A stretch of 64,000 nt of DNA. Origin: Flavobacterium sp. 102 (lineage in GTDB: Bacteria; Bacteroidota; Bacteroidia; Flavobacteriales; Flavobacteriaceae). Under the pieces are notes generated by a model, which worked only from the letters and a program-made list of their open reading frames with translations, was not told the DNA's origin and made no database searches. This document shows, in pieces, positions 36,615-51,899 of this stretch. Position 1 is the first letter of the stretch, and every line of letters begins with the position of its first letter. Position numbers and translations under genes: made by a program. The stretch spans positions 124,001 through 188,000 of the forward strand of contig NZ_RBKX01000001.1 in NCBI RefSeq assembly GCF_003634615.1. Reading direction: 5' to 3'.

Positions 36615-39600
36615 TTATTTTTTAATCACTTTAACGGTTTTGACATTATCGTCTATTGTTATTCTTATTAAATAGGTACCACTAGCCAGTCTTGACATAT
36701 CGATTTGACTTTCAGTAGCATTGTTAAACTTGGCGTCAACTAATTGACCAAGTAGATTCACCACTTCAACTTTAGCTATAATACCTGTAAAAGAGATGTT
36801 TAAGACATCAACAACAGGATTAGGATAAACCTTTAAATTATTCGCTTCAAATTCTTCTCTTCCCAAACAACCACCTAAAGTCATCGTAACAGCAATTCTA
36901 GTTGGACTTTCGCAAGCACCTACCGTTTGCGAACCATAATAAACTGTTCCCGAAACTAATGGTGTTCCTGATGAAACAACATTACCATTTGAAGGCGCAT
37001 CATACCAAATGACGTTGGCACCAACAACATTGATTAACCCTACTGTTTCACCTGCACAGAATGTTTGATTTGCCAATCCTGTCGGAGCATCAGTTGGAAC
37101 AATCGAAGCGGTAACTGCCACTCGTGATGATGTACAAGTTCCATTCGTTGCTTCTACATAATAATTTGTAGAAACAGAGATACTTGGTGTGGTAAAGCTA
37201 GTACCTGTTCCTACCAAATTCCCTAATGTTGGTGCATCATACCAATTTAAAGTTCCTAAATTAGCAGTTGCATTCAAGGTCAAAGTTCCTGTATCACATC
37301 TGCTTCCCGGAGTTGTTGATGTTATTGTTGCCACAATATAAACAGTAGCTGTCACAGTAGTTCGCGCAGAAGCACAAGTGCCATTTACTACTTCAACATA
37401 ATAAGGTGTTGTCATGCCTAAAACAGGAGTAGTAAAACTTCCACCTGTAGCAACTAGTGTACCGCCAGTTGGAGCATTATACCAATTTATTGTTCCGACA
37501 TTTGCCGTTGCTTGTAATGTTACTGAACCATTTCCACATCTACTTGCCGGAATGGTCGAAAGTAATATTGGCTGTTCATTTACAGTGGCAGTAACCGCAG
37601 TTCTAACCAAAGAAGTGCAACTCGCATTAATGGCTTCCGCATAATAATTTGTCGTCACAGATAAACTTGGTGTGGTAAAATTTGAACCTGTTCCTACTAA
37701 GTTTCCTAATGTTGGCGCATCATACCAATTAACTGTTCCCGAAGAAAAAGTAGCCGATAACGTTACCGAACCATTGCCACATCGTGAAGCCGGAGTTGAA
37801 GATGTATTTGTAGGTCTGTTGGTCACTGTTACTTCCACCGCCGTTCTTCCTGATGAACAATTTCCATTAATGGCCTGCGCATAATAAGTAGCAGTAGCTC
37901 CCAAACTTCCCAAAGAATAATTACTACCGGTTGCCAATAACGTTCCTCCCGCAGGTAAATTATACCAGTTTACAGTTCCTGCACTTGCTGTAGCAACAAT
38001 TGTAAATGAGTCGCCACTACAAATACTCATTGGAGTTGTTGACGTAATCGTTGGACTGTTATTAACTGTGGCAACAACCAAAGTTCTTGCAGAAGAACAA
38101 AGACCATTTACCGCTTCCACATAATAATTTGTTGTTGCAGCTATACTAGGAGTCGTAAATGAATTTCCGGTGCCAACTAATGTTCCTAATGTTGGTGCAT
38201 TGTACCAATTTAAAGCCCCAACACTTGCGCTTGCTTGTAGAGTTACTGTACCGGCATCACATCGGCTGTTAGGTGTAGTGGAAATAATAATTGGCGTAGC
38301 ATTTACTGTTGCTGTGACTGCTGTTCTTACAGAATTACAGATACCCGAAGTAGTTTCAACATAATAAATAGTAGTTGCTGAAATACTTGGCGTTATAAAA
38401 GTGGTTCCGGTTCCAACTAAATTTCCTAATGTAGGTGCATCATACCAATTTAAGGTTCCACCAGAAGCTGTTGCTTGCAATGTTAAAGTTCCTGAATCAC
38501 ATCTACTCGCTGGTGTTGTTGAAGTTACGCTTGGAACCGAATTAATCGTAGCTGTAACTGCAGTTCTTGGCGATGTACAGAAACCATTCGTCACTTCAAC
38601 ATAATAAATTGTTGTTGTAGTGAGGCCAACTAAATTCAACGTGCCACCTGTGGCAAGCAGGGTTCCGTTTGTTGGTAAATCATACCATCTTATGGTTCCT
38701 GTTGTTGCTGTAGCAGTTAACGAAATATTACCTGTTCCACATCTGGCGGCAGGGGTTGTAGCAGTCAATGAAGGAGTAGAATTTACCGTTGCAGTAACTG
38801 AAACTCTTGTTGACGTACAAGAACCAACCACTGATTCTACATAATAAATGGTAGTGGTTGAAATACTCGGCGTGGTAAAACTTGTGCCTGTTCCTACTAA
38901 GTTACCTAATGTTGGTGCATCATACCAATTTAAGGTTCCTATCGTAGCCGTTGCTTGTAAAGTTACTGTACCGGCATCACATCTACTCACTGGAGTTGTA
39001 GTACTAATTACAGGAACAGCAGTTACTGTTATATAATTAGTAAAAGTAACGTTGTCACCGCCATTGTAATTGGTAGCAGTAAATGTTACTGCATAAGTCC
39101 CTGCAGTGTTGTATGTAACCGTTGGATTTTGTGCTGTTGATGTTGCTGGTGTTCCACCTTCAAAAATCCAACTCCACACAAATGGTATATTCGTAGAGGT
39201 ATCTGTAAACGTTACGGATTGACCTACGCACAAGGCCGTTGTAGAAGCAGTAAAACTTGCTACTGGCGGTTGTGTTGGGCAAATTGGTGCCGTAACATCC
39301 ATAGTGTAGCCATCGCCATCTCCTCCAAAATAAGCATAGAAATGTGGGGGAAATGCACAAACTGAATTCTCTATAGTTTCTACTCCGGCACCATCATTAT
39401 CACCTCCCATGTAGGCATAGAAAGAAGGCGGAATTCCACAGGCAATTGCGCTTAATTCTTCTGTTCCTGCACCATCATTAATCCCACCCATATAGGCATA
39501 TTGAGATGGCGCAGTTCCACACGCTGTTGTACTTAATTCTTCAACACCTGAACCATCATTAATTCCTCCAAAATAGGCATAAAAATGCGCTGGAATTGAA

Positions 39601-39728
39601 CAACTGGCTCCACTTAACTCATTAATTGTAGCTCCGCCGGAGTTTCCTCCGTTATATTGAGCAAATGTGTTAAACTGTGTCAAAAGAAATGTTAAGCAAA
39701 CAACTAAATATATTTTTGTTGTTTTCAT
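36615..39728 (-). CDS. T9SS surface protein with 27-residue Cys repeats, PKD and nine Ig-like repeats
   Basis: 1037 residues. Signal peptide 1-24. Residues 38-150 hold four units of 27 residues (Cys at 43, 70, 97, 124, then 150) with FYAYFGGINDGSG-type cores. A PKD domain lies at about 155-237. Eight closely similar Ig-like repeats of about 79 residues follow from 239, each with SRCDxGTxTLxATA, LNWYDAPTLGNLVGTG and YYVE blocks, then a ninth diverged one. The end is a T9SS type A sorting domain (VYPNPVVDVLNI to KTVKVIKK). Likely an elongated surface adhesin. Second gene after SUMF1 in a unit driven by operator R1. Confidence 0.88.
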   Translation of the reverse strand: MKTTKIYLVVCLTFLLTQFNTFAQYNGGNSGGATINELSGASCSIPAHFYAYFGGINDGSGVEELSTTACGTAPSQYAYMGGINDGAGTEELSAIACGIPPSFYAYMGGDNDGAGVETIENSVCAFPPHFYAYFGGDGDGYTMDVTAPICPTQPPVASFTASTTALCVGQSVTFTDTSTNIPFVWSWIFEGGTPATSTAQNPTVTYNTAGTYAVTFTATNYNGGDNVTFTNYITVTAVPVISTTTPVSRCDAGTVTLQATATIGTLNWYDAPTLGNLVGTGTSFTTPSISTTTIYYVESVVGSCTSTRVSVTATVNSTPSLTATTPAARCGTGNISLTATATTGTIRWYDLPTNGTLLATGGTLNLVGLTTTTIYYVEVTNGFCTSPRTAVTATINSVPSVTSTTPASRCDSGTLTLQATASGGTLNWYDAPTLGNLVGTGTTFITPSISATTIYYVETTSGICNSVRTAVTATVNATPIIISTTPNSRCDAGTVTLQASASVGALNWYNAPTLGTLVGTGNSFTTPSIAATTNYYVEAVNGLCSSARTLVVATVNNSPTITSTTPMSICSGDSFTIVATASAGTVNWYNLPAGGTLLATGSNYSLGSLGATATYYAQAINGNCSSGRTAVEVTVTNRPTNTSSTPASRCGNGSVTLSATFSSGTVNWYDAPTLGNLVGTGSNFTTPSLSVTTNYYAEAINASCTSLVRTAVTATVNEQPILLSTIPASRCGNGSVTLQATANVGTINWYNAPTGGTLVATGGSFTTPVLGMTTPYYVEVVNGTCASARTTVTATVYIVATITSTTPGSRCDTGTLTLNATANLGTLNWYDAPTLGNLVGTGTSFTTPSISVSTNYYVEATNGTCTSSRVAVTASIVPTDAPTGLANQTFCAGETVGLINVVGANVIWYDAPSNGNVVSSGTPLVSGTVYYGSQTVGACESPTRIAVTMTLGGCLGREEFEANNLKVYPNPVVDVLNISFTGIIAKVEVVNLLGQLVDAKFNNATESQIDMSRLASGTYLIRITIDDNVKTVKVIKK

Positions 39729-39801: not shown

Positions 39802-41250
39802 TTATCTTACGCCACGTCCGCCATAAGTATAATTTCTGGCAGCATTTGTAGTACTGGCATAAGTTCTATCAGAAGTTCTAACATTAGTTGCCACATTAAC
39901 ATAATCTCCTCCTCTTTGTCCTATACCCGTTGCTGTTGTAACTGAAGGCCAAGTTGCCTGATTAGCATCTCCTATTGAAGTTAAAGTTCCGTCTCCAAGT
40001 GTTCCATTAAAAGCAGTTCCAGATGCATTAGCAACACATACTGTTCTCTCAACAACATTTCCTCCCATTTCCATTGCTCCATAATAAGAAGCACCTGCGG
40101 AAGATCGCCCAGAAGAAGCAGTTGCAAAAACACCCACTTTCAATGGACCATACGCTCCACTTGAAGTTCCTAAAGCGTGAGCACATCTTCCATTCAAAAC
40201 AGTATTTGCCATTTCATTTGGCTGCAATGGATTAATAACTGTAGTACTGTAATAAGGATTAATGTTAGTATCTCCCCATGGATATTCACCAGACACACGA
40301 GGTGTTATACCACGGCAAATTTTTTCAAATTCCAACTCTGTCATTGGTCTTAAAGCCGACCAATCTAAATAAGCTGCTAAATCTGCCCAGCTCAAATTGT
40401 TCATGGCTACACTTTGTCCGTCATTATTATTGTTGACCACATTAGCAGTGGCATCACAAGCAAAAATAGCCGGAATTGCAGCATTATTCCCTGGTGTTTC
40501 AATTACGATTCCGTTTCGGTAAGCATAACTACCAAAAGCAACATACGTTCCCGAAGCACTCGTTGGATCTGAGGTAACTCTTGACTGTTGTTGCGCAAAA
40601 GTTAATGAGTTTAAAAATTCAACATATTGTAATTGAGAGATTTCATATTTCATCACATAAAATGAATTATATCCCATTGGAAAAGTTGCCGGCACTGGTG
40701 GTCCGCCACCTCCGATTACTGAAGAAGTTACTCCCGCAGATTGAGTAGTAGCCGTAACACTTATACTGTTAAATGTTGCTACACTCAAACCATCTCCAAT
40801 TTCGAAAGCACTTTGAGGTACGTTTACCATTTCAATTCCAAAAACTTTATAATTATATGTTCCTGCCGGAATAGTCATTTTTAATGTAATACTTGTTGCA
40901 GAAACATTACCGCCACCGATAGCACTTCTTCTAATGAAAACGCCTTTTCCGTCAGTTACTGGATCTACTTGCAACGGCGAAGCTGCCGAATGATCCCCTG
41001 CAACCGAACTTAAACCTGCATGCGCCCACAAACGTGTGTTACAATCCTGAAATTTGACAAATACCCATACGGCATCCCAATTAGCCGGAGCAACACTGGC
41101 ATTCCAACTGTTTTCCCAACTGATATTGAAAGTAATATTTGAACCCGAAACGGACGTTCCCGTAATCTCGACGTTATTTGCTTTACTATTGAATGCCAAT
41201 AAAAAAAATAGTGCCGTAACCATTTTCGAAAAATAATTTTTTGATTTCAT
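39802..41250 (-). CDS. Secreted SUMF1-fold (formylglycine-generating-enzyme-like) protein
   Basis: 482 residues. Signal peptide about 1-24. An Ig-like N-terminal domain (VEITGTSVSGSNITFNISW) covers about 26-175. Residues about 195-482 are a SUMF1/FGE fold: FYVMKYEISQLQYVEFLN, RPMTELEFEKICRG, YPWGDT, GAMEMGGNVVERT and the terminal GGRGVR. No Cys pair typical of true formylglycine-generating enzymes is evident, so it is more likely a structural or binding member, as are GldJ/GldK of gliding motility. Operator R1 lies 56-75 nt upstream of its start. The T9SS Ig-repeat gene follows 73 nt later in the same unit. Confidence 0.85.
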   Translation of the reverse strand: MKSKNYFSKMVTALFFLLAFNSKANNVEITGTSVSGSNITFNISWENSWNASVAPANWDAVWVFVKFQDCNTRLWAHAGLSSVAGDHSAASPLQVDPVTDGKGVFIRRSAIGGGNVSATSITLKMTIPAGTYNYKVFGIEMVNVPQSAFEIGDGLSVATFNSISVTATTQSAGVTSSVIGGGGPPVPATFPMGYNSFYVMKYEISQLQYVEFLNSLTFAQQQSRVTSDPTSASGTYVAFGSYAYRNGIVIETPGNNAAIPAIFACDATANVVNNNNDGQSVAMNNLSWADLAAYLDWSALRPMTELEFEKICRGITPRVSGEYPWGDTNINPYYSTTVINPLQPNEMANTVLNGRCAHALGTSSGAYGPLKVGVFATASSGRSSAGASYYGAMEMGGNVVERTVCVANASGTAFNGTLGDGTLTSIGDANQATWPSVTTATGIGQRGGDYVNVATNVRTSDRTYASTTNAARNYTYGGRGVR

Positions 41251-41276: not shown

Positions 41277-41325
41277 CAAATCTACCTTGCCTTTAAACAA
41301 AAAAAAATACGACAGTTGCCGTATT
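41277..41325 (-). promoter_or_regulatory. Operator-promoter R1 (SUMF1/T9SS unit)
   Basis: On the minus strand the palindrome AATACGGCAACTGTCGTATT (41325-41306) is followed by exactly 21 nt and the -7 box TAGATTTG (41284-41277). No TTTG -33 box is present; the palindrome covers that position. The ATG is 26 nt further on. The same layout occurs at R2-R5. Confidence 0.75.
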
Positions 41326-41327
41326 TT
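41299..41327 (-). terminator. Terminator of the response regulator gene, coincident with R1
   Basis: The R1 palindrome forms an 11-bp hairpin in RNA (with one G-U pair), followed by U9 on the minus strand, 26 nt after the regulator stop codon. Confidence 0.7.
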
Positions 41328-41352
41328 AAGAAAAATATTCTTTCAATTTACT

Positions 41353-42000
41353 TTAAATCAAATTGTTGTTCTTGGCTTTTTGAATCGCTTCGAGTTTATT
41401 ATGCACCTGCAATTTGGTATAAATATTCTCAATATGCTTTCTAACGGTTGATGGTGAAAGATAAAGATTGTCGGCAATTATATTGTAGTTTAATCCTTTG
41501 CTGAGTTGTTCTAAAACCTCAACTTCTCTTGTGGTTAGTTTAATTTCTTGTTCCGATTTTTGTTCAAAATCAACCGGATTTCTTAGTAATTTCAATGTTT
41601 TCAAAGCAATAGAAGGATTCATAGCGGCGCCACCATTTAAGGTTTCTATAATGCCTTGATGTAATTCTTTCGGATTGACTTCTTTGAGCAAATAACCGTC
41701 TGCTCCGGCTTTGATGGCATTGAAAATATTTTCATCGTTATCAAAAACCGTCAGCATAATGATTTTAATTTGAGGGTATTTGGTTTTGATGATTTTGGTA
41801 GCTTCGATTCCGTTACAAACGGGCATTTCGATATCCATCAAAATCAAATCGATGCATTTATTGACCTCTAATTTTTTCTGCAAATCAATGCCGTCGATGG
41901 CCGTAAATTTTAAAATCAAATCGTCAAAAAAAGATAGCTTTTCAGCAACTGCTTTTTGTAAAAAAACATTATCGTCTACTATGGCTATTCTTGTTGACAT
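41353..42000 (-). CDS. LuxR/NarL-family response regulator
   Basis: 215 residues. A receiver domain (1-122) has acidic pocket residues Asp9-Asp10, phospho-acceptor Asp56 (LILMDIEMP), Thr at TVFDND and Lys in LLKEVNP. A LuxR-type helix-turn-helix (about 150-212; LTTREVEVLEQLSKG, LYLSPSTVRKHIENIYTKL) ends the protein. It is a typical activator paired with HisKA_3 kinases; two such kinases are encoded directly upstream in the same direction. NarL/LuxR regulators bind inverted repeats, so the five palindromes of this cluster are its likely sites. The spacer before its start holds R2 and a terminator. Confidence 0.93.
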   Translation of the reverse strand: MSTRIAIVDDNVFLQKAVAEKLSFFDDLILKFTAIDGIDLQKKLEVNKCIDLILMDIEMPVCNGIEATKIIKTKYPQIKIIMLTVFDNDENIFNAIKAGADGYLLKEVNPKELHQGIIETLNGGAAMNPSIALKTLKLLRNPVDFEQKSEQEIKLTTREVEVLEQLSKGLNYNIIADNLYLSPSTVRKHIENIYTKLQVHNKLEAIQKAKNNNLI

Positions 42001-42057
42001 GGCTTGAGATTGTATAACAAATTTGGTTATTTTTTTTCAAGTAACATACTGATTTGC

Positions 42058-42116
42058 AAAAAAAGTCCTTTTCAAACCAGTGATTTAGCTTGAATAAATC
42101 CCAGAATGAAAAGGAC
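42058..42116 (-). terminator. Terminator between operator R2 and the regulator gene
   Basis: On the minus strand GTCCTTTTCA (42074-42065 side) pairs with TGAAAAGGAC over a 32-nt loop that contains a smaller GATTTA/TAAATC hairpin, followed by U7 at 42064-42058. It ends any transcript that starts at R2 before the regulator gene. Confidence 0.7.
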
Positions 42117-42168
42117 AACAATAAAAACAACCTAAGTGTTTTTTTCTTTGAAAAATCAATACCACTTG
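42058..42168 (-). ncRNA. Candidate ~110-nt small RNA or attenuated leader
   Basis: Operator R2 with its -7-like box predicts a start near 42168 on the minus strand. An intrinsic terminator with U7 ends the transcript near 42058. There is no convincing ORF; only a 26-codon GTG frame. The RNA would be 5'-AAGTGG..., with a long terminal hairpin. It may be a small RNA of the regulon or a leader that limits expression of the regulator gene at 42000. No RNA family is recognised. Confidence 0.45.
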
Positions 42169-42174
42169 ATTAGT

Positions 42175-42223
42175 CAAATTTGACCATTTAAAAGGATAAA
42201 AAAAATACGTCAAATGACGTATT
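42175..42223 (-). promoter_or_regulatory. Operator-promoter R2 (small RNA / regulator)
   Basis: On the minus strand the near-perfect palindrome AATACGTCATTTGACGTATT (42223-42204), 21 nt, then CAAATTTG at the -7 position (42182-42175), which keeps the A and TTTG of the box but lacks the T of TA. It lies 175 nt before the regulator start. Confidence 0.62.
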
Positions 42224-42224
42224 T
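42198..42224 (-). terminator. Terminator of the kinase operon, coincident with R2
   Basis: AAATACGTCA pairs with TGACGTATTT, followed by U8 on the minus strand, 25 nt after the stop codon of the second kinase. Confidence 0.75.
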
Positions 42225-42248
42225 ATCTTAGACCGTTGGATTCAGAAT

Positions 42249-44201
42249 TTAATGCTTTTCCAACTTTATACTTATAGCTGTTCCTTTATCTACACTTGAT
42301 TTTATATCAAATAAACCACCGATATCAGCAATGCGTTTTCGCATATTATTGATGCCGTTTCCGAATTCTGTGTTTCCTATCTCAAAGCCTTTTCCGTCAT
42401 CTATTATAGTAATTAAAACATCTATTTCAGTTGGTTGAATGCTTATAGCAATACTTCTTGCATTCGCATACTTGATACTGTTGTTAATGGCTTCTTGAAT
42501 CGTTCTGTACAAATTCATTCCTTCAACAGAAGTGAATTTTATTTTTTTTAGTGAGTGATTAACTTCAAAATTGAATTGAATATTTTCCTTTGCTTCTTGT
42601 GCTTTGTCAATAAAATTATGGATTCTGGCTTGTAAATCTTCAAAAGTGATTTCGCTCTTGTTCATTGCCCAAATCGTATCTCGTAGCTCAATAATCGTCG
42701 ATTTTGCAAAATTACTAATACCGGAAAGTTTCGAATCCAGCTTGTCATTTTGAATGTCAAAAGCATATTTAATATTGTCGACAGAGGAAATAATAAAAGT
42801 CAATTGCGACCCAATATTATCATGCAAATCTCTGGAAATATCAAGACGCTGTTCTTGTAATTTGTTTTGGGTTTCAATTTTGGCTATTGCCGATTTGAGT
42901 TCAAATTCTTGTTCTTGTTGTTTGTTTTTGAGCTTTTGTTGGCGATAAACCAAATAAACAATGATTAATAATGCCAATGAAATTAAGCCTAAAATCAAAA
43001 ACTGGGTTTCTTTTTTTCTGATTTCCAATTCGCGCGTAGCAATTTCGGCTTTTGATTTTTGGAGTAATCTTTCTTTCTTTTCGGTTTGGTATTTGGTTTC
43101 TAATTCGGTCGTTTGTTTTTCGACTTTACTGAGTAATAATTGTTCATTTAAAACCGCCAATTTGTCCAAATAATAGTCAACGCTGTCGGGTTTGTTTAAA
43201 TAAGCATAAACAGTGATTAAAGATTTGTAGTTCTTCTGTAGTTTTTCGTTGTGATTGGTTTGCTCAAAAAATGGTTTGGTGGTCAATAACAACTTTTTGG
43301 CTTTCTCATATTTTTTGTTCCTGGCAAATTCTAGAGCCAAATTCAAATCGAAATTGGCTTTGTCTAAATTGGAATTGAGTTCTTCTCTGACTTCTTTTGA
43401 CTTTTGATAGAGTGCCAAAGCATCTTTAGACTTTTTTTGTTCCGATTTGATAGAAGCAATGTTGTTAAATCCACTCGAAATCCCTTTTTTGTTACCAACA
43501 GCCGTGCAAGCTTTTACACTTTTGTCATAAAACTTCAAGGCGTTAATCGTGTCTTGCATGTGCAAATAAACATTCCCGAGGTTCAAACAAGAAACACATA
43601 ATTCTTCCTTAAAATCATTTTTTTCTTGATACTGAATTACATCGCTGATGTATTGCAACGCTTTTGGATAGTTCTTTAATTTGAGATGAATCAGACCGAT
43701 GTTGCCTTTGATAATACTCGTGTTTTTTTCGTCTTTTGTATTTTCAAAATAGGCTAAGGCTTCTAAAAAAGAAGTCATAGCTTGCTTATACTGATGTGTT
43801 TTTTCGTAGATATTGGCTAAATTATTATTGATTTTAGCTAAGCCTTTCTGATCATTTCTGAGTTTTCTGATTTTGTATGCTGATAAATAATTGGTTTTCG
43901 AATTGACAAAATCACCTTTGATAAAATAAACCGCCCCTATATCGCTGTAAACCTGCGCCATTAAGGTCGAATCATTTAATTTCTTGGATTCAACAGCTGC
44001 TTTTCCACCATAATGTAACGCAGAATCAATGTCGATTTTAGAATAGTACCAAGTCAAATCAGAATAGATGGTTGCGGTTCTTTTGGCATCCGGATTGGCT
44101 TTTAAATCTTTCTTTAAACCATCAATAACATTTTGAGCATTTTGCGCCCTAACCGATATTGAAATCAGGAACAAAAAGAATAAAACCAAACCTTTTTCCA
44201 T
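42249..44201 (-). CDS. TPR sensor histidine kinase, HisKA_3 type (second of pair)
   Basis: 650 residues from the ATG at 44201; a longer frame to 44309 would overlap the preceding gene, and MEKGLVLFFLFLISISVRAQ is a good signal peptide. Several TPR repeats (about 50-340) lie in the periplasm, followed by a coiled coil, a membrane helix (FLILGLISLALLIIVYLVY) and the kinase part. Phospho-acceptor His460 is in RDLHDNIGSQLTF; the ATP-binding lid is DDGKGFEIGNTEFGNGINNM. The kinase half is nearly the same as in the preceding gene. It should phosphorylate the LuxR regulator encoded downstream. Confidence 0.9.
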   Translation of the reverse strand: MEKGLVLFFLFLISISVRAQNAQNVIDGLKKDLKANPDAKRTATIYSDLTWYYSKIDIDSALHYGGKAAVESKKLNDSTLMAQVYSDIGAVYFIKGDFVNSKTNYLSAYKIRKLRNDQKGLAKINNNLANIYEKTHQYKQAMTSFLEALAYFENTKDEKNTSIIKGNIGLIHLKLKNYPKALQYISDVIQYQEKNDFKEELCVSCLNLGNVYLHMQDTINALKFYDKSVKACTAVGNKKGISSGFNNIASIKSEQKKSKDALALYQKSKEVREELNSNLDKANFDLNLALEFARNKKYEKAKKLLLTTKPFFEQTNHNEKLQKNYKSLITVYAYLNKPDSVDYYLDKLAVLNEQLLLSKVEKQTTELETKYQTEKKERLLQKSKAEIATRELEIRKKETQFLILGLISLALLIIVYLVYRQQKLKNKQQEQEFELKSAIAKIETQNKLQEQRLDISRDLHDNIGSQLTFIISSVDNIKYAFDIQNDKLDSKLSGISNFAKSTIIELRDTIWAMNKSEITFEDLQARIHNFIDKAQEAKENIQFNFEVNHSLKKIKFTSVEGMNLYRTIQEAINNSIKYANARSIAISIQPTEIDVLITIIDDGKGFEIGNTEFGNGINNMRKRIADIGGLFDIKSSVDKGTAISIKLEKH

Positions 44202-44211
44202 GTTCTTAAAC

Positions 44212-46101
44212 TTATAATAATATGCTGATTTTGGTTCCTGAACTTGAACTTTGCAGTTCGAATTTTCCATTGATTTCGGCGATTCGCTTTTGCATATTGA
44301 GCAAGCCATTTCCTTTTTCTGTGGTGTTTAAATCGAAGCCATTTCCGTTATCTTCAATGGTAATTTGGATGTTGTCCTCGGATTTTTTCACTTGAATTTC
44401 AATCTTTTCGGCATCGGCATATTTAATGCTGTTGTTGATGGCTTCCTGAATAGTTCGATAAATATTCATGCCTTCAATGGAAGTGAATTGACGCTCTTTT
44501 AATTCGGCATCGACTACAAAATTGAATTGAATTTCGTTCTTTGCTTCTTTGGCTTTATCGATAAAATTGTGGATTCGAGTTTGCAAATCTTCGAAGGTGA
44601 TTTGGCTTTTATTCATTGCCCAAATTGTATCACGAAGCTCTATAATGGTGGATTTGGCAAAATCGCTAATCCCGGAAAGTTTCTTGTCGAGTTTGGCATT
44701 TTGAATATCAAAAGCATATTTGATATTGTCTACCGAAGAAATAATAAACGTTAGTTGCGAACCAATATTATCGTGCAAATCTCTGGATATTGTTAATCGT
44801 TGTTCTTGTAACTTGTTTTGGGTTTCAATTTTGGAAATCGCCGATTTGAGTTCAAACTCTTGCTCTTGTTGTTTGATTTTTAGCTTTTGTTGGCGGTAAA
44901 CCAAATAAATAATACACAACAATGCCAATGAAATTAACCCAAGAATTAGGAATTGGGTGTTCTTGTTTTTGATTTCCAATTCTCGTTCTATAACTTGTGC
45001 TTTGGACTGTAAGAGCTGTTTTTCTTTTTTCTCATTTTGGTATTTGGCCTCCAGTTCAGAAAAGGTTTGGGCGCGTTCTATGTCAAAAACTGAATCCCTA
45101 ATATTGATATAACGTTCTTGATCAAGAACGGCTTTAGACAAGTTATTTCTTTTCTTGTTGAACTGTGCTCTGTGGTAATAAAAATCTCTTAATTTCTCCG
45201 CATTTTTGCTTTTTTCAGCATATTCACGAGCCGTTTCAAATAATTTTTCTGCCCTATTAAAATCATCCAATTCATAGGCTATGGTTGCCAAATTAGTATA
45301 ATTGGTTGCTCTTGTGTAATAATAATTTCCGTCTTTAATACCATTATTGATTTCAAAGTTCTTATCATTGATTTTAAGAGCTGTGCTAATCCATTTTTGA
45401 GCTTCTTTGTATTTTTTTTGCTTCAACAAAGTATTCCCGATATTATTGTAGGTTTCACCAATATGAAGTGTATCTTTTCCTTTATAGTATTTGAATACTT
45501 TTTTGTGGTAAAAAAGCGCACTATCAGGTTTGTTCCAATCATCAAAATTGATGGCGATAGCATTTAATGAATTGCTAATCATACTTGGGTCTTTCTTTTT
45601 TTGACTTTCCCAGTATTTTAAAGATTTTTTGCCATAGAAAATACCTTTTTCATAACTTTCAAAATCGTGATAGGTTAATGATAAATTGGCGTTAAAAAAA
45701 GCTATCCAGTTGTTCTTTTTTTCTTTTTCTGCTACTCTGATGCCTTTGAGAGAATAATCTATTGCTTTGTCATACTGACCTTGCTTTCTGTATACTTTAG
45801 AGAGATTGTTGTAAAGTGTCAAAAGCGAATTTAAATCGCCATTTAGTAGAAGTTTCTCCGCTTTTAAACCATAAACTATCGAGCTGTCTAATTGGTTATA
45901 ATCACAACAACGGGCATTTTTACAAAAATAGTATTGTGCTTCATCGGCTGTGTTTTTAATGCTTTTCTTGGCTACTTTAAAATAGTAGTCGGAGGAATCC
46001 TGCGAAGTAAATGCTTTGATCAGTATTTTTTGAATATCTTGAGCATTTGTCTCAAACGAAAACAGCAATGCAATGATTGTGAAGTAGTAAAATTTTTTCA
46101 T
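44212..46101 (-). CDS. TPR sensor histidine kinase, HisKA_3 type (first of pair)
   Basis: 629 residues from the ATG at 46101 (MKKFYYFTIIALLFSFETNAQ is the signal peptide). TPR repeats cover about 60-330, then a coiled coil, a membrane helix (FLILGLISLALLCIIYLVY), His443 in RDLHDNIGSQLTF, and an ATPase domain with EDNGNGFDLNTTEKGNGLLNM. From the coiled coil onward it closely matches the next kinase, while the TPR halves differ. This suggests two inputs feeding one regulator. The stop codon lies 10 nt before the start of the second kinase. It is in an operon with the 93-residue protein upstream. Confidence 0.9.
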   Translation of the reverse strand: MKKFYYFTIIALLFSFETNAQDIQKILIKAFTSQDSSDYYFKVAKKSIKNTADEAQYYFCKNARCCDYNQLDSSIVYGLKAEKLLLNGDLNSLLTLYNNLSKVYRKQGQYDKAIDYSLKGIRVAEKEKKNNWIAFFNANLSLTYHDFESYEKGIFYGKKSLKYWESQKKKDPSMISNSLNAIAINFDDWNKPDSALFYHKKVFKYYKGKDTLHIGETYNNIGNTLLKQKKYKEAQKWISTALKINDKNFEINNGIKDGNYYYTRATNYTNLATIAYELDDFNRAEKLFETAREYAEKSKNAEKLRDFYYHRAQFNKKRNNLSKAVLDQERYINIRDSVFDIERAQTFSELEAKYQNEKKEKQLLQSKAQVIERELEIKNKNTQFLILGLISLALLCIIYLVYRQQKLKIKQQEQEFELKSAISKIETQNKLQEQRLTISRDLHDNIGSQLTFIISSVDNIKYAFDIQNAKLDKKLSGISDFAKSTIIELRDTIWAMNKSQITFEDLQTRIHNFIDKAKEAKNEIQFNFVVDAELKERQFTSIEGMNIYRTIQEAINNSIKYADAEKIEIQVKKSEDNIQITIEDNGNGFDLNTTEKGNGLLNMQKRIAEINGKFELQSSSSGTKISILL

Positions 46102-46151
46102 CCGGAGATTGTATAGCATAAATGTATTAAAAATGTTAAAATTTTCAATGG

Positions 46152-46433
46152 CTAAATCTCTTTTTTTGGATACAAATCTTCCAAGAGTTGATAATTTAAC
46201 TCGAAAACATTTTTGCTCAAAGCGACATTGACTTCTTTCATCTTTATTTTTAAATCATCTGAAAGTTGGAGCTGAATTGATTGCTTTTGGTGTTCACTAT
46301 TTAATTCAATGATAAATTCCTCTAAAGGTTTTAGCTTAGATTGAAACTCATTTCGCTCTGAGAGCATCTTGTTTCTCAGATAGAAGATGAGCCCAATTTG
46401 AATTAAAAAAACGAGTATTAGAAAAAAAGTCAT
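46152..46433 (-). CDS. Small membrane-anchored coiled-coil protein
   Basis: 93 residues. One N-terminal membrane helix (FFLILVFLIQIGLIFYL, about 3-19), then a charged helical region (LSERNEFQSKLKPLEEF ... VNVALSKN) likely to form a coiled coil. No family recognised. It is the first gene of the kinase operon: the first kinase starts 50 nt after its stop, and operator R3 lies upstream. It may be an accessory factor of the kinases, but this rests on position only. Confidence 0.6.
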   Translation of the reverse strand: MTFFLILVFLIQIGLIFYLRNKMLSERNEFQSKLKPLEEFIIELNSEHQKQSIQLQLSDDLKIKMKEVNVALSKNVFELNYQLLEDLYPKKEI

Positions 46434-46453
46434 ACTGAGTCGAATATAAATTT

Positions 46454-46502
46454 CAAAATTCGGTTAAAAAGAAGCCAAAAAAAATACGGCGTTTGCCGTA
46501 TT
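46454..46502 (-). promoter_or_regulatory. Operator-promoter R3 (coiled-coil / kinase operon)
   Basis: On the minus strand AATACGGCAAACGCCGTATT (46502-46483), 21 nt, then GAATTTTG at the -7 position (46461-46454; one mismatch to TAnnTTTG). The ATG at 46433 is 20 nt further. It implies that the kinases are under control of their own regulator. Confidence 0.7.
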
Positions 46503-46504
46503 TT
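46477..46504 (-). terminator. Terminator of the lipoprotein gene, coincident with R3
   Basis: A perfect 10-bp stem AAAATACGGC / GCCGTATTTT with a 4-nt loop, followed by U8 on the minus strand, 22 nt after the lipoprotein stop codon. Confidence 0.8.
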
Positions 46505-46525
46505 CATATGAGATGTTTCTATGAA

Positions 46526-47056
46526 TTAGTTTTGGAAATTCACATTGAATGCCCCATTAGTCACTGCTTTCGTATCAGTTCCGTTTTGGTTTTTACCGGT
46601 AAAGTTGAATGTTCCTTTTACATTAGTATCGCTTATTTCACTGATGGTAATAGAACCTACTACACCTGAATCCTCATAAGGAGCTGCCCAAGTTGGCGAA
46701 TTCATAGGATTACTTTGGTTAAGCTCTGTATAACTTGCAACAGCAGAAATAGCTGCATCATCGCTGATTTCAAAAGTTCCCGGCTGACCGTTAGTTCCGT
46801 TAAGAATCAATTGAATTGCCTTGCCCTGCGCTGTACTGCCTTGAACAATAATAGTGGTTGTTCCGCCTGCAACGATTTTTTGGGCAAAGGTTGCTACTTC
46901 CATAGAGCTAAAACTGGAACCCGCTACTTTGGCTTTTACTTGTCCTAACGATGCATTTCCACCTCCGCCACCGCCATCATCGCTTCCGCTGCATGATGAT
47001 AATAAAGTAGCCAATGCCACTGTTAAAACGATTCCGAATTGTTTAATTGTTTTCAT
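46526..47056 (-). CDS. Small lipoprotein with DUF6252-like beta domain
   Basis: 176 residues. Lipobox LLSSC (Cys22) followed by a SGSDDGGGGG spacer. The rest is a beta-rich domain of about 145 residues (VKAKVAGSSFSSMEVATFAQ, IQLILNGTNGQPGTFEIS, VVGSITISEISDTNVKGTFNF), resembling small Bacteroidetes lipoproteins often labelled DUF6252. The assignment is by general pattern only. Surface or periplasmic. It has its own operator R4 and ends in the R3 terminator. Confidence 0.7.
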   Translation of the reverse strand: MKTIKQFGIVLTVALATLLSSCSGSDDGGGGGGNASLGQVKAKVAGSSFSSMEVATFAQKIVAGGTTTIIVQGSTAQGKAIQLILNGTNGQPGTFEISDDAAISAVASYTELNQSNPMNSPTWAAPYEDSGVVGSITISEISDTNVKGTFNFTGKNQNGTDTKAVTNGAFNVNFQN

Positions 47057-47083
47057 AATATTTAAAGTTAAAGGTTATTACTG

Positions 47084-47132
47084 CAAATTTTCACTTTTAT
47101 CAAATGGCAAACAATAAGGCATTTGTCGTATT
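47084..47132 (-). promoter_or_regulatory. Operator-promoter R4 (lipoprotein gene)
   Basis: On the minus strand AATACGACAAATGCCTTATT (47132-47113; the weakest palindrome, one arm CTTATT), 21 nt, then AAAATTTG (47091-47084). The ATG at 47056 is 27 nt further. The palindrome begins inside the last base of the preceding stop codon. No U-tract follows, so it is not a terminator. Confidence 0.6.
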
Positions 47133-48559
47133 TAGTTAGTTTTCATCAAATTGGCTTTTGGAACACTTACATATTTTAAAACATTGGTTTCATTTTCACT
47201 AGAGATGAAATACAGCACTTCATTTTTTTCGTCATAAAAAGGTAATCCGTCAAAATCTGTGGTATTCACTTTACTACCAAGATTGATGGGTTCCGACCAA
47301 TTTTTCCAAGTCTCATCTAATCGATAAGAAACAAAAATATCATAACTACCAAAAGCGCTGAATCCGTCGCTGCTAAACAACATCGTTTTGTTATCAGACA
47401 GCAATTGGCACATCCCTTCATCAGCCGCTGAATTGATTACTTTGCCCATATTTTGCAATAAGCCATAATTACCGTCTTCTTTTTGTTGTGCGAAATACAA
47501 ATCGCTGGCGCCTTGAGAAAAATCGGTTTCAATACCCATAATTAAAATCTTTCTGTCAGCAGTTAGAAAAGCCTCTGCTGTTTCGTCATAATTGTTATAA
47601 GCTGTCACTTTTACTGGTTCCAAAGCTTCATAATTTCCATTATTGATTACAAACAATTCAAACCCGGTTTCTGTCGTACCCTTGGTATAGCGATTACCAC
47701 CTTTTAACAAATAATGAGTTCCAATAGATTTTACGTGATTATAACGTTCTCCGGTATTGAGCGAAGATTCTAGTTGCTTGTTAGCCCATTGTCCTGAAGT
47801 ATTTCTGGTAAAAGAAAAAATCTCATTTTTCACCTCACTGATTCCGGTTACAAAAAGTTTTAATCCATCACAAGACACCGATGGACTAGTGGGAACAATA
47901 TCCGGTAATTGTAGTGTTTTGGCAGTTGATAAACTTTCAAAAGCCGCTGTAGTATTGACTGTAGGTTGAATTGGTGTTTCAGTATCGGAAATCCCGATAG
48001 CATCAACTTCTTTTTGTCCCGGTAACAAAGCAAAATTAAATTCCACGCGAACCGCCACAACACCTGAAACTGCTTCGTCTAGAATAGCATATTCTACTCC
48101 TGGATTAATAACATCCGGGCTTTCCTGAATCTTTCTTCTTTTGCGTTTGAAATAGTAGTTTCTGTCTGCCGGAATAGTCGCTTTGAACATTACCGTTTTA
48201 TAATTGGGCCTTCTCGACCAAACACGTTTGTATTTTCCTGATCCGTCATCAACAGAAATACTTACAACACAACCTGCATTTAGATTCTCAAAAACAGCAA
48301 CCTGTTTTACAGTCTGCGGCTTTTCGAAACCAACTTGCACCCATTCATAACCATCCAAAGCATTTTTGGGCGTCCAAGCATTTGGGCTACTGCCACCTTG
48401 AGGAAAAGCATCGGGCTTTCCTAAAATTCTTTTAATCCCATGCTGTTTACCTCCTAAATCTGATGAAAATTTAATTAGTTTATTGGCCCATTGCACTTGT
48501 TGCGCATTGGCAGAATAAAAGACTAATAAGAATGAATAAAGAAATAGTATTTTTCTCAT
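47132..48559 (-). CDS. Secreted discoidin-like plus PD40 propeller protein
   Basis: 475 residues. Signal peptide 1-19 (VFYSANAQ). Residues about 25-190 look like an F5/8-type C (discoidin) domain (PNAWTPKNALDGYEWVQVGFEKPQ split over the domain, TVKQVAVFENL). Residues about 200-470 carry WD40-like PD40 repeats (LFSSDGFSAFGSYDIFVSYR, WSEPINLGSKVNT, LYFISS) as in OmpA-associated peptidoglycan proteins, but there is no OmpA domain. Probably periplasmic or surface and ligand-binding. Third gene of the R5 unit; 67 nt separate it from the propeller gene. Confidence 0.72.
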   Translation of the reverse strand: MRKILFLYSFLLVFYSANAQQVQWANKLIKFSSDLGGKQHGIKRILGKPDAFPQGGSSPNAWTPKNALDGYEWVQVGFEKPQTVKQVAVFENLNAGCVVSISVDDGSGKYKRVWSRRPNYKTVMFKATIPADRNYYFKRKRRKIQESPDVINPGVEYAILDEAVSGVVAVRVEFNFALLPGQKEVDAIGISDTETPIQPTVNTTAAFESLSTAKTLQLPDIVPTSPSVSCDGLKLFVTGISEVKNEIFSFTRNTSGQWANKQLESSLNTGERYNHVKSIGTHYLLKGGNRYTKGTTETGFELFVINNGNYEALEPVKVTAYNNYDETAEAFLTADRKILIMGIETDFSQGASDLYFAQQKEDGNYGLLQNMGKVINSAADEGMCQLLSDNKTMLFSSDGFSAFGSYDIFVSYRLDETWKNWSEPINLGSKVNTTDFDGLPFYDEKNEVLYFISSENETNVLKYVSVPKANLMKTN

Positions 48560-48626
48560 AATGATTGTTATTTAAAATAGAAAGGACCGCAACGAATTGC
48601 AGTCCCAACCAACTTCCTCAAAAAAC

Positions 48627-50468
48627 TCAATTGTTAACTTTAATTTTTTCTACTTTTTTTCCTTTAAAAGCGAAGATGAATTCACCATCATCTGAAATAT
48701 CGATACCGGCGCCATATTTTGGGCTTCCGCCTTTACCCTTAGATTGAACAGAACCTTTGGTTTCTCCATTGGTCATATCAATACCATAGATAATATTTTT
48801 GCTGTTTCTTTGATCTCTCAAATAGTAATTTCCTTCAATCTCATAGAAATAATCTACACCTCTTATCTTTTCTGTAGCATAAACTCTTGAACCGTCTTTT
48901 TTATTATAAGACGCTAATCCTTTTTCGGAAAGTACAACTACTTTATCTCCAAAATCGATAACATCAGTTGCTTTTCCAACTTTAGCATCGTTGTGTTTTA
49001 CATCAAATAATTGATTTCCTGAAGCAATATCATAACCATAAAATTCATCTCCGTCACCTACAAATAATGTTTTATCATTTTCGAGAATAAAATCGGTAAT
49101 ACGTTTGTCAAATTTCTCAGAACGCCAAGCTGTTTTTCCGGTTTTGTCATCCAAACACAATACAGAGTTTTTTTGCGCTTTATAATCCCAGTAGATATAA
49201 GGAACCCATTGTTTCATGGAACCGCCACCAAAACCGCCAAGTGCCATTCCGGCTGAGAAGCCATTGGAAACTTCTTCTAATCTGAACTCCTGAACTTGGA
49301 CTTTTCCACCAACTTGAACTAAAACTTTGTCTCCTGATTTATAAATATTCGGCATACAAAATGAACCCGTGATTTTCTCTGAAGCCCAAAGTAATTTTCC
49401 TGAAGCCAAATCGTGTTTTTCAACATACTTAGTTCGGTCTCTGGTTCCCAAGATTACAATGTAAACTGCATCGTCTGTAAACAAAGGATCCGCTATAGTT
49501 CTGTATATCTTAGAACGTTTTCCACCGCTGAACATTCCTCCTCCGGCGCCCTTCATGTCATTCTCATAAGTCACTTCCCAAAGTTTTTGTCCGTTATTGA
49601 TGTTGTAAACCTGCAATCCATCTAAGTACATGTATAATTTATCCTCTTTAATCCATAAATCGACAATCGCTCTGCGAGTAACCAATTCTTTTTCGATAGT
49701 TCCGAGAAAAGTTGCATCCCAAAGAATATCTCCATTAGTAGCATTAATCTTTACCAATTGATTCTTAAAACCGGCAAATAAAGCACCAAGAGCGGTTGGT
49801 TTAAAATTAATCATGATGATTTCGTTTCTTTTACCATCATAAATATATTTGCCGACACCACCTTTGAAACGATTGGTTTCCCAAACTTTTTCTCCTGTGT
49901 TGGCTTTAACCAAAATCACAGAAGCCTTTTGTGAAATTAAAAAAGCATCTAATTCGAAAATGTACTTAACCGTTTCCAATTCGCCTTCGTCAGAACCTTC
50001 TTTTGCAGCAGTTCCTTTAGGAATAAGATTTTGGTATTCTTCTGAATTCCATAGCTCTTTCCCAGTGGCAACATCAAGGACTGCAACCCTATCCGTTCCT
50101 AATTTTCTTTCGTCAAAGAGAAATAAATAACCGCCTTTCCCCTTGCCTTTGTGGATAATGTATTGGTAATCACATTTGTTGGTTTTATTGGTTGTGATTT
50201 TTTTGTAATCACCACTCCAAACTTGTTTTCCATTGACATCTAATACCGTAGCAGAATTATCATCTGTTGCTAAAACATATTCTCCTCCGTTTACAGCCAC
50301 TGCTAATTGCGTCGCTTTGTTGTCAAATTCTGATTCCCAAACGGTACCAAAACTTCCTGATTTTTTTCCGGCGCCTTTGCCTTTACCCATTAATTTACCA
50401 AACTGGGCGTTTGCCGGTAATGTGATGGCTAGAGAGAGCATCAGCATTACTAAAGTAATTTTCTTCAT
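48627..50468 (-). CDS. PQQ-like beta-propeller protein
   Basis: 613 residues. Signal peptide 1-21 (ITLPANAQ), then a Gly/Lys-rich stretch (FGKLMGKGKGAGKKSG). The rest repeats propeller blades with A/G-x-D-x-x-T-G-K-x-x-W motifs: VLDVNGKQVWSG, VLDVATGKELWNS, KINATNGDILWDA, HDLASGKLLWASE, CLDDKTGKTAWRSE. Fold as in PQQ or BamB proteins, but there are no visible PQQ-binding residues or enzyme motifs. Exported; role unknown. Second gene of the R5 unit, 26 nt after the TonB-C-like gene. Confidence 0.8.
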   Translation of the reverse strand: MKKITLVMLMLSLAITLPANAQFGKLMGKGKGAGKKSGSFGTVWESEFDNKATQLAVAVNGGEYVLATDDNSATVLDVNGKQVWSGDYKKITTNKTNKCDYQYIIHKGKGKGGYLFLFDERKLGTDRVAVLDVATGKELWNSEEYQNLIPKGTAAKEGSDEGELETVKYIFELDAFLISQKASVILVKANTGEKVWETNRFKGGVGKYIYDGKRNEIIMINFKPTALGALFAGFKNQLVKINATNGDILWDATFLGTIEKELVTRRAIVDLWIKEDKLYMYLDGLQVYNINNGQKLWEVTYENDMKGAGGGMFSGGKRSKIYRTIADPLFTDDAVYIVILGTRDRTKYVEKHDLASGKLLWASEKITGSFCMPNIYKSGDKVLVQVGGKVQVQEFRLEEVSNGFSAGMALGGFGGGSMKQWVPYIYWDYKAQKNSVLCLDDKTGKTAWRSEKFDKRITDFILENDKTLFVGDGDEFYGYDIASGNQLFDVKHNDAKVGKATDVIDFGDKVVVLSEKGLASYNKKDGSRVYATEKIRGVDYFYEIEGNYYLRDQRNSKNIIYGIDMTNGETKGSVQSKGKGGSPKYGAGIDISDDGEFIFAFKGKKVEKIKVNN

Positions 50469-50494
50469 GACTTATTGTTTTTATTGTTATGGTG

Positions 50495-50866
50495 TTAAAA
50501 TGTAATCGTGTAACGAATTTTATATCGCTGTTGTTTTTGCAATTTGAATTTGAATTTGTGGTCTAAGATGTAGCCCGACATGAAATTGATAAAATCGATA
50601 TTCTTGATGTCGCTGTCTACTTTGAAGAAGGAAGAAACCTTCCCGTTTTGCACTACGCCAATATCTACGACCATTGTGCCTTTGACGTCTGCGTATTTTT
50701 TGCTTTTCTTTTTTTGGAAATCGTCTGCTTGAAAAACCTCATCAATTTCCTTAGTCACGGTTTCAGTCACCGCTTCTTCATCTGTTAGTACCGGTTTTTG
50801 TGCCAATACATTTTGAGTAGACAACAAGAGAAATGTGAATACTAATAATGCCTTAATTGTTTTCAT
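50495..50866 (-). CDS. Small exported TonB C-terminal-like protein
   Basis: 123 residues. Signal peptide 1-22 (TQNVLAQ). The second half (GTMVVDIGVVQNGKVSSFFKVDS ... ILDHKFKFKLQKQQRYKIRYTITF, shown in parts) resembles the TonB C-terminal fold. The membrane anchor and Pro-rich spacer of energy-transducing TonB are missing. It therefore probably acts as a soluble periplasmic binding domain, not as an energy transducer. First gene of the R5 unit, followed by the propeller and discoidin/PD40 genes. Confidence 0.65.
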   Translation of the reverse strand: MKTIKALLVFTFLLLSTQNVLAQKPVLTDEEAVTETVTKEIDEVFQADDFQKKKSKKYADVKGTMVVDIGVVQNGKVSSFFKVDSDIKNIDFINFMSGYILDHKFKFKLQKQQRYKIRYTITF

Positions 50867-50890
50867 GGTTTTAGGTTGTTAAATACATAA

Positions 50891-50939
50891 CAAACCTATT
50901 GCGAAATACTGAAGAAGGAAATACGGCAAATGTCGTATT
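50891..50939 (-). promoter_or_regulatory. Operator-promoter R5 (TonB-C-like / propeller / PD40 unit)
   Basis: On the minus strand AATACGACATTTGCCGTATT (50939-50920), 21 nt, then a perfect -7 box TAGGTTTG (50898-50891). The ATG at 50866 is 24 nt further. No -33 box. No U-tract follows the palindrome, so it is not a terminator here. Confidence 0.75.
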
Positions 50940-50942
50940 TTG

Positions 50943-51899
50943 TTAAAATTGGATGTACGGGAACCGTTCTTGAAGTTTGATAATCTTTTGATTAAGAGAA
51001 GTTAAGAACAGCTGATGAGCTGAAGTGTTAGGATTAAAAGGACGATGGGCTAATCCTTTTTGAATGTTGCAAACTTCTTGCATCGTGTCAAAATATTTTG
51101 AATCAACATAATTTTCGAAAAAACGTATCCAAATATAATCGATCGCGGCTTGGCTTGGATGCAACATGTCATCAGCATAGAATCGATAGTCACGAAGTTC
51201 GTCCATCATGATTTCGTAGCTAGGAAAGTAGCACTTCGACAAGCTCAGTGTGACATCTGCAAGAAGATTATGTATGGCGGTAATGAGATGCGCTTTGCTG
51301 CGTTGGTTTTCAGGGAAACCGTCTTTGATATGTCGTACCGGTGAAACCGTGAATATAAAACGACAATCGGGATTGACTTTTTGAATTAAGGAGATTGTAT
51401 TCTGAATTGATTTCTGAATGATTTCAGGCGATAGGATTTCTTTGGCAAATTCTTTTTGCGGTACTTTATGACAGTTGGCTACAATTTCATTAGTCAGATT
51501 ATGTCGGTAAACCCAAGAAGTTCCATAAGTAATGATGATGTGGCTCGCTTGAATTATTAGATGGTTAGATTGTTGGATTGTTAGATTTAGTCTTTCTAAG
51601 AACTCCTTTTTGTCAGGATGACTCAACTCTGAATGGACATCGTAGCAATGCCACAAATCATTGTGAAAGAAAATATCAACTTCCGTAAACAGTCTTTGAT
51701 TCACTATTCTTTCCACCAACTTCTCAATCGAAACCGGATTGAAAATTATTCCAAATGGATTGGTTGTCATTTGGAATTTAAAATAATTGAACTTTTCTCC
51801 CATATTCTCGGCAAAGCACGATCCAAGAGACAATATTTTAGAGTTATAATCTATTGGATATTCATAAGCGGCAACAGGAACTTTGGTGGTGAAATTCAT
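50943..51899 (-). CDS. GSCFA family protein carrying repeat-derived segments
   Basis: 318 residues. The N-terminal ILSLGSCFAENMGEKF is the GSCFA signature; FGIIFNPVSI, IITYGTSWVYRH, FTVSPVRHIKDGF and LRDYRFYADDMLHPSQAAIDYIW are further family blocks. GSCFA proteins have an SGNH-hydrolase-like fold; their substrate is not established. Cytoplasmic. Two segments are encoded by sequence that resembles dispersed intergenic repeats: VTLSLSKC (51232-51255) and TIQQSNHLIIQ (51551-51588). The gene is not part of the palindrome regulon: it has a -7 box of its own, and R5 lies after its stop. Confidence 0.88.
   Translation of the reverse strand: MNFTTKVPVAAYEYPIDYNSKILSLGSCFAENMGEKFNYFKFQMTTNPFGIIFNPVSIEKLVERIVNQRLFTEVDIFFHNDLWHCYDVHSELSHPDKKEFLERLNLTIQQSNHLIIQASHIIITYGTSWVYRHNLTNEIVANCHKVPQKEFAKEILSPEIIQKSIQNTISLIQKVNPDCRFIFTVSPVRHIKDGFPENQRSKAHLITAIHNLLADVTLSLSKCYFPSYEIMMDELRDYRFYADDMLHPSQAAIDYIWIRFFENYVDSKYFDTMQEVCNIQKGLAHRPFNPNTSAHQLFLTSLNQKIIKLQERFPYIQF
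51232..51255 (-). repeat. Repeat element inside the GSCFA gene
   Basis: Plus-strand CACTTCGACAAGCTCAGTG followed by TGACA. Related to TCTCGACTGCGCTCGA...TGACA at 55763 and CCTCGACTGCGCTCAG...TGACA at 55849. Here it is translated in frame as VTLSLSK. Confidence 0.6.
51551..51588. repeat. TTAGATTGTTAGATT-type tract inside the GSCFA gene
   Basis: A low-complexity tract built of TTAGAT/TTGGAT units. A similar tract (TAGATTATTAGATGTTTAGA...) lies in the alaS leader at 55661-55702, and a shorter one lies after hutU at 33541. Confidence 0.45.

Follow-up and report, generated by a model that had tools for sequence, protein, structure and literature searches.

A Predicted NarL-Type Regulon with Promoter-Coupled Operators at a TPR-Kinase/LuxR-Regulator Locus of Flavobacterium sp. 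102

RESULTS

Six putative operators at a fixed distance from the -7 box

Flavobacterium sp. 102 carries a minus-strand gene cluster encoding two TPR histidine kinases, a LuxR-type response regulator (positions 41353 to 42000), and envelope or surface proteins, in which five 20-bp inverted repeats precede presumed transcription units. Positions refer to the window, the whole stretch of 64,000 nucleotides analyzed here, which comprises bases 124,001 to 188,000 of the 3,817,109-bp single-contig genome. Our analysis suggests, with a probability of about 0.83, that the repeats are operators of this regulator, which would act as an autoregulated class II activator of the five local units and of a distant gene for an outer-membrane barrel protein. 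Judged from sequence, the regulon is genuine, of the NarL type, and conserved; its operator is new to the literature searched, and the kind of mechanism is already known. No description of the operator or regulon was found among the results examined from the PMC literature, to which most subscription papers do not belong.

A scan of the window for the repeat with up to three mismatches gave 13 strand matches, compared with a mean of 2.63 (maximum, 9) in 100 shuffled sequences. All five palindromes named in an earlier note on this DNA (the original prediction) were recovered, as quasi-palindromes with 7 to 9 matching pairs out of 10, as read from the letters. The three remaining matches have three mismatches apiece and each occur on one strand only; at up to two mismatches there is no further copy in the window, as had been claimed. 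The assertion that exactly 21 nucleotides (nt) separate each palindrome from an nAnnTTTG octamer, here termed the -7 box, was likewise borne out at five of five sites. The operators and boxes are as follows.

50920 to 50939, minus strand: operator 1, AATACGACATTTGCCGTATT, 3 nt past the end of the upstream gene (50943 to 51899)
50891 to 50898, minus strand: -7 box TAGGTTTG, 21 nt from operator 1
47113 to 47132, minus strand: operator 2, AATACGACAAATGCCTTATT; the next base, G, completes a TTG ending at -33
47084 to 47091, minus strand: -7 box AAAATTTG of operator 2
46483 to 46502, minus strand: operator 3, AATACGGCAAACGCCGTATT; T-run after the operator, stop codon 23 nt before it
46454 to 46461, minus strand: -7 box GAATTTTG of operator 3
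42204 to 42223, minus strand: operator 4, AATACGTCATTTGACGTATT; T-run after the operator, kinase stop codon 25 nt before it
42175 to 42182, minus strand: -7 box CAAATTTG of operator 4
41306 to 41325, minus strand: operator 5, AATACGGCAACTGTCGTATT; T-run after the operator, regulator stop codon 27 nt before it
41277 to 41284, minus strand: -7 box TAGATTTG of operator 5

In the 3.8-Mb genome, the strict 20-mer pattern occurs at six sites, compared with none for a reversed-pattern control. The sixth copy, at genome positions 2,019,397 to 2,019,416, lies about 1.85 Mb away, 21 nt before TAGTTTTG, and the gene that follows encodes a 158-amino-acid outer-membrane beta-barrel protein. This copy, absent from the original prediction, obeys its rule exactly. 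At each of the six strict sites the box lies 21 nt away; with zero mismatches, the composite of 20-mer, 21-nt spacer, and nAnnTTTG was found nowhere else. The original prediction had named palindromes at random, promoter-unrelated positions as one outcome that would speak against it; the scan instead found every strict copy coupled to a promoter. A looser composite built on AATACG-N8-CGTATT, with up to two mismatches, returned the same six sites and one reverse reading, compared with two control matches, and a three-mismatch scan was uninformative (2,299 matches versus 2,230 in the control, per strand). The earlier description of a self-contained unit fails on the sixth operator, and we rejected a fully local regulon on the same ground: with a copy before the distant barrel gene, the regulon would be mostly, not wholly, local.

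Conservation of spacing and co-occurrence with the regulator

The 21-nt spacing recurs in relatives. Among AATACG-type repeats in the window and 111 relative stretches (L111 to L221), 199 have this spacing, compared with 0 to 18 at any other distance from 5 to 40 nt; because L111 to L229 were partly picked by motif, site numbers there are no blind sample. In 79 loci from titled records, which overlap in species with the 299-genome sample below and were not added to it, 155 repeats have the 21-nt spacing, compared with at most 12 at others. At least one site occurs in 75 of these 79 loci, and 174 of their 176 sites are on the strand of the regulator gene. A 28-column profile, trained on the strict sites that it then recovers, found 250 sites at 12 bits or more, compared with 1 in reversed DNA, and 227 compared with 0 at 14 bits or more. 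An open reading frame (ORF) of at least 60 amino acids starts within 350 nt of 211 of the 219 de-duplicated sites, mostly with family medians of 10 to 30 nt, in an uncontrolled count.

The stretches examined include one or more sites for 77 of the 88 regulator loci; of the other 11, five (L120, L151, L158, L160, and L166) sit on short contigs or at the end of a contig and six have RRH-type regulators. Every one of the 14 loci titled with other genera has a site (one is a metagenome-assembled genome, Algibacter, L276); L278 (Flavobacterium restrictum) and unplaced metagenome-assembled loci are excluded from this count. They represent nine genera: Winogradskyella, Algibacter, Xanthomarina, Planktosalinus, Formosa, Hanstruepera, Mariniflexile, Moheibacter, and Marinirhabdus. 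In 13 of the 14, a DUF6252-like protein, judged by its N terminus only, follows the site.

Regulator and motif also occur together across 299 congeneric genomes, which were sampled from a larger group and include the genome studied here. A regulator orthologue (E value below 1e-45; listed identities of at least 62%) is present in 78 of them, about a quarter, a share similar to the 76 of 299 found for Flavobacteriaceae. As read from the tables, the strict motif with 18- to 24-nt spacing matches 53 genomes (3 reversed-control matches) and a looser motif matches 69 (10 reversed-control matches). For the strict motif at exactly 21 nt, 41 genomes have both motif and regulator, 3 the motif only, 37 the regulator only, and 218 neither; the regulator is thus found in 41 of 44 genomes with the motif versus 37 of 255 without it. 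This count omits eight genomes with a different palindrome class, AATATGAC-N4-GTCATATT (see below), and G255, whose sole match has an 18-nt spacing; when these are kept, the four numbers are 43, 10, 35, and 211. By the union of motifs, they are 70, 11, 8, and 210. The Fisher values for co-occurrence (4e-25 and 8e-47) overstate the evidence because the genomes are phylogenetically non-independent.

Architecture of the predicted operator and promoter

The regulator matches Pfam Response_reg (78.7 bits) and GerE (60 bits), the receiver and LuxR helix-turn-helix combination of the NarL/FixJ family, and aligns lengthwise with the ChrA, VraR, and NarL chains. Its score against the NCBIfam NarL equivalog, 117.5 bits, is below the cut-off of 250. 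The closest regulators among titled records are from Flavobacterium.

The operator majority, AA-TACGRCA-NN-TGYCGTA-TT, consists of two 7-mers (columns 3 to 9 and 12 to 18) and a 2-bp gap (columns 10 and 11), giving a 7-2-7 layout; most of its fixed letters were imposed by the search pattern, except A9 (86 of 86) and T12 (77 of 86), and columns 10 and 11 vary. With the -7 box set at -12 to -5, its position in excerpts of PMC6847099, the operator spans -53 to -34 and is centered at -43.5, 31 bp upstream of the box; these coordinates are computed from the box and refer to a predicted start. Class II activators are expected to be centered near -41 to -45. The operator is followed by G or T at 216 of 219 sites. 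TTG ending at -33 is present in 89 of 219 operator sites versus 5 of 116 TAnnTTTG control promoters, and T at -12 in 70 of 219 versus 116 of 198 control boxes, the controls being boxes chosen by position before ORFs and not mapped promoters. At -12, C or G mostly stands in place of the usual T, which fits activator-dependent promoters. Since the TTG at -33 is formed by the operator edge, operator and -33 element can overlap; in F. johnsoniae, according to excerpts of PMC6847099, the -33 element is weak.

The original prediction held that a TTTG -33 box is missing from all five window promoters. This is true only of TTTG ending at -33: operator 2 (47113) runs into a G and makes a TTG ending at -33, and it has a TTTG ending at -29 too, while at the 41306 and 46483 sites TTTG ends at -26 and -27, respectively. 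The proposal that the palindrome replaces the -33 box is too simple, given the 89 of 219 sites with TTG at -33 and the T-runs, positioned like those of terminators, at three of the five window sites.

Operator subtype and regulator clade

Operators differ at their inner bases, many having C at column 8 and G at column 13 (C8/G13). The 88 loci divide into 25 with one regulator and only C8/G13 operators, 27 with one regulator and only other inner bases, 9 with one regulator and mixed operators, 11 without a site, and 16 with two regulators. The 27 single-regulator loci whose operators have only other inner bases all show a Gly-type recognition helix; in the 25 C8/G13-only loci the helix is Ser in 19, Gly in 3, Asn in 1, of the KKH type in 1, and truncated in 1. 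Both operator types occur in 12 of the 16 two-regulator loci. In loci from other genera, C8/G13 sites accompany three Ser types (L280, L298, and L307) and none of the 11 Gly types. Among 75 titled-record loci with sites, the Ser types comprise 30 with C8/G13 and 4 with mixed operators, and the Gly types 18 with other, 3 with mixed, and 7 with C8/G13 operators. These distributions suggest that the subtype of the operator follows the clade of the regulator, apart from exceptions among the Gly types. As the tree is largely one split with a nested KKH clade, the covariation is suggestive and does not represent many independent trials. We rejected the idea that one Ser/Gly residue determines specificity: L124 and L188 are Gly types yet have only C8/G13 operators, and the switch falls mostly in one clade.

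The KKH-helix regulators (L127, L131, L135, L142, and L148) go with AATAMGYCAAACGGCKTATT operators, a possible third specificity.

Taken together, spacing, co-occurrence, clade covariation, and the 7-2-7 layout strongly support what the original prediction had proposed, that each unit is preceded by a putative operator of the regulator at a predicted class II position near -43.

Possible second role as a terminator

A T-run of at least six follows the operator at 58 of 219 sites. Its frequency depends on the distance to the upstream same-strand stop codon: 27 of 35 sites with the stop 21 to 45 nt away have one, versus 7 of 102 with an abutting stop, and the other classes together give 24 of 82 (7/25 at 9 to 20 nt, 5/26 at 46 to 100 nt, 5/14 at 101 to 400 nt, and 7/17 with no stop within 400 nt). 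Stop distances peak at 24 nt with a T-run and at 0 nt without. Within target families, the association has a Mantel-Haenszel odds ratio of about 18 (8 of the 219 sites, which have no family, were omitted). Orthologous sites in these counts are not independent, and the idea was drawn from the window's three T-run sites, themselves among the 27. We tentatively propose that the operators may be two-way punctuation, activating the downstream unit and, where the stop codon lies beyond ribosome cover, terminating the upstream unit through an RNA hairpin.

Evidence against the proposed regulon and alternative explanations

Several observations weigh against the assignment of these operators to this regulator as an activator. 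The half-site TACGRCA is unlike the NarL heptamer, TACYYMT, and differs from it at positions 4, 5, and 7. Subtype matching is imperfect: C8/G13-only operators occur in 7 of 28 Gly-type titled-record loci with sites, the Gly-type loci L124, L143, and L188 have no other kind, nine single-regulator loci have mixed operators, and evolutionary switches are few, with the Gly types mainly in one clade (in a quick and unfinished tree, 39 of whose 97 inner branches are open). The strict motif is present without a detected regulator in three draft genomes (G021, G071, and G220; less than 88% complete). By the union definition, 11 genomes have the motif only, a definition whose looser pattern also gave the 10 reversed-control matches. 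Seven AATACG-type sites occur in G231, which lacks a regulator of the window's family. The six divergent regulators of the RRH clade have no site in the scan, with a similar repeat at 22 nt in two; nothing convincing was found at L191 to L193 of this clade, and a de novo search of nine site-less loci gave related repeats in L150 and L195 (RRH clade), one in L120, and little else. Finally, the nearest geometric parallel, the Escherichia coli promoter ogt1052, is engineered and, according to excerpts of PMC7419079, needs NarL or NarP and is not nitrate-coupled.

The ligand might be another protein, such as a paralogous NarL-type regulator encoded elsewhere. AATACGTAT-type sites with 20- to 22-nt spacing occur in G231 and G149, both of which lack this regulator family, so paralogues may share the geometry. 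The tight co-occurrence and linkage of the operators with this regulator, and the covariation of their subtype with its clade, make such a ligand improbable here. About equally improbable is that the same regulator binds the operators and represses the promoters. Autoregulated operators are often repressive, but these lie upstream of the core promoter near the NarL activation position, with a base-exact spacing to the -7 box, and 149 of 219 sites lack T at -12, as expected of activator-dependent promoters.

That the repeats serve solely as intrinsic terminators of upstream genes would account for the T-runs 23 to 27 nt past the stop at three window sites and in the 27 of 35 sites with a stop 21 to 45 nt upstream. 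It is very unlikely in view of the two window sites, and 161 of 219 overall, that have no T-run of six or more; terminators, moreover, require no conserved AATACG sequence and no constant 21-nt spacing to an element of a promoter. A mobile or repetitive extragenic palindromic (REP)-like family, which the five similar palindromes within 10 kb might bring to mind, can practically be dismissed, as the genome has six strict copies, each promoter-coupled, and 174 of 176 related sites are on the regulator's strand. Activation by the regulator encoded at 41353 to 42000 is the reading that we prefer.

Genes behind the predicted operators

Five transcription units of predicted extent, one per operator, are presumed.

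50495 to 50866, minus strand: small exported protein that opens unit 1; its AgmX/PglI C-terminal match is weak, at 25.2 bits against a cut-off of 40
48627 to 50468, minus strand: PQQ_2/BamB-like beta-propeller protein, unit 1, by domain match
47132 to 48559, minus strand: unit 1 protein whose matches to PD40 and PorE-like profiles are weak and in no case reach the cut-off; the gene end meets operator 2
46526 to 47056, minus strand: DUF6252 protein with a lipoprotein-like N terminus, unit 2
46152 to 46433, minus strand: 93-amino-acid protein with a hydrophobic N terminus, unit 3
44212 to 46119, minus strand: TPR-HisKA_3-HATPase histidine kinase, unit 3, by domain matches
42249 to 44309, minus strand: second TPR-HisKA_3-HATPase histidine kinase, unit 3, by domain matches
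41353 to 42000, minus strand: NarL/FixJ-type response regulator, unit 4, predicted ligand, by domain and structure-chain matches
39802 to 41250, minus strand: exported protein with an FGE-sulfatase (SUMF1) domain, unit 5
36615 to 39728, minus strand: Ig_7/PKD surface protein of 1,037 amino acids that carries a sorting domain for type IX secretion; presumably the second gene of unit 5

DUF6252 is the commonest target family, with 32 of 211 operator-ORF pairs, and the family of the small exported protein heads 19 of 211; the name DUF6252 was not found in the PMC literature searched. The two kinase ORFs overlap by 98 nt. The true start of the second is probably an internal methionine at about 44201, which opens a signal peptide (MEKGLVLFF); with this start there is no overlap. 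The leader of the regulator promoter (42000 to 42182) is long, with 174 nt from box to ATG. Across families, box-to-ORF medians are 170 and 199 nt for the regulator and kinase families, where the ORF picker possibly skipped small upstream ORFs, and 10 to 30 nt for most target families.

Other repeat classes

AATACGTAT/AATACGTGT-type repeats lie 20 to 22 nt from nAnnTTTG at 4 to 12 places per genome in G061, G231, G277, and G149; they are probably the regulon of a related NarL-type regulator. In eight genomes (L222 to L229), AATATGAC-N4-GTCATATT palindromes lie 19 nt before nAnnTTTG, centered at about -41.5. We set this class apart from the present regulon, as seven of the eight genomes lack the regulator and other genes lie downstream. 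An ORF follows in seven of the eight loci; these presumably encode a CcoS-like small protein (four), a YceI-like protein (two), and a heavy-metal P-type ATPase-like protein (one). The class resembles a Crp/Fnr-type class II activator site.

DISCUSSION

We propose that the regulator is phosphorylated by one or both of the TPR histidine kinases, as their domains and linkage suggest. A regulator dimer would then bind two TACG-type half-sites in the 7-2-7 arrangement, about 43.5 bp before the transcription start, and would recruit RNA polymerase with the housekeeping sigma factor to otherwise weak promoters. The predicted targets are the regulator's own gene, both kinases, envelope and surface proteins, and the distant outer-membrane barrel. 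Because the regulator and kinase genes are among them, the circuit would be positively autoregulated.

For a TPR-kinase/LuxR-regulator system, the analysis predicts an operator whose distance from the core promoter is specified to the base pair, by which the targets of this signaling class could be read from sequence. The regulator clades with their matching operator subtypes offer natural specificity swaps, and the DUF6252 protein gains a predicted regulator and partners.

The closest comparison is with the NarL promoters of E. coli. According to PMC9314961, most NarL sites are repeats of the 7-2-7 kind, and at ogt1052 one site, 32 bp upstream of the -10 element, is enough; according to PMC7419079, one NarL site just upstream of the -35 element suffices at yeaR. 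The yeaR promoter and the ogt derivatives share with the operators found here inverted 7-bp half-sites 2 bp apart, a NarL-family regulator, and one site immediately upstream of the core promoter. The distances are also close: the ogt1052 site is at -44.5, 32 bp from the -10 element, and the operator here at -43.5, 31 bp from the -7 box. Unlike the E. coli promoters, those described here have, in most cases, a TACGRCA (or TACGNA-type) half-site, a Bacteroidetes -7 box, TPR kinases instead of nitrate sensors, and envelope targets.

Within the Bacteroidetes, FimS/FimR of Porphyromonas gingivalis pairs a TPR histidine kinase with a LuxR-type regulator. The NCBIfam FimS profile matches the kinase at 42249 to 44309 with 79.9 bits, a likeness far below the equivalog cut-off of 600.

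The sigma-A promoter of the Bacteroidetes has a TTTG-bearing -7 box a few tens of bases before the gene, as given in excerpts of PMC6847099 and PMC9723704. The operator promoters differ from this standard form: just 70 of 219 have T at -12, and the operator fills -53 to -34. They also differ from PorX/PorY-SigP, in which, according to the abstract of PMC4800418, a two-component system controls type IX secretion through an extracytoplasmic function (ECF) sigma factor: the -7 boxes before the predicted targets here are of the sigma-A type, and a single local target is type IX cargo.

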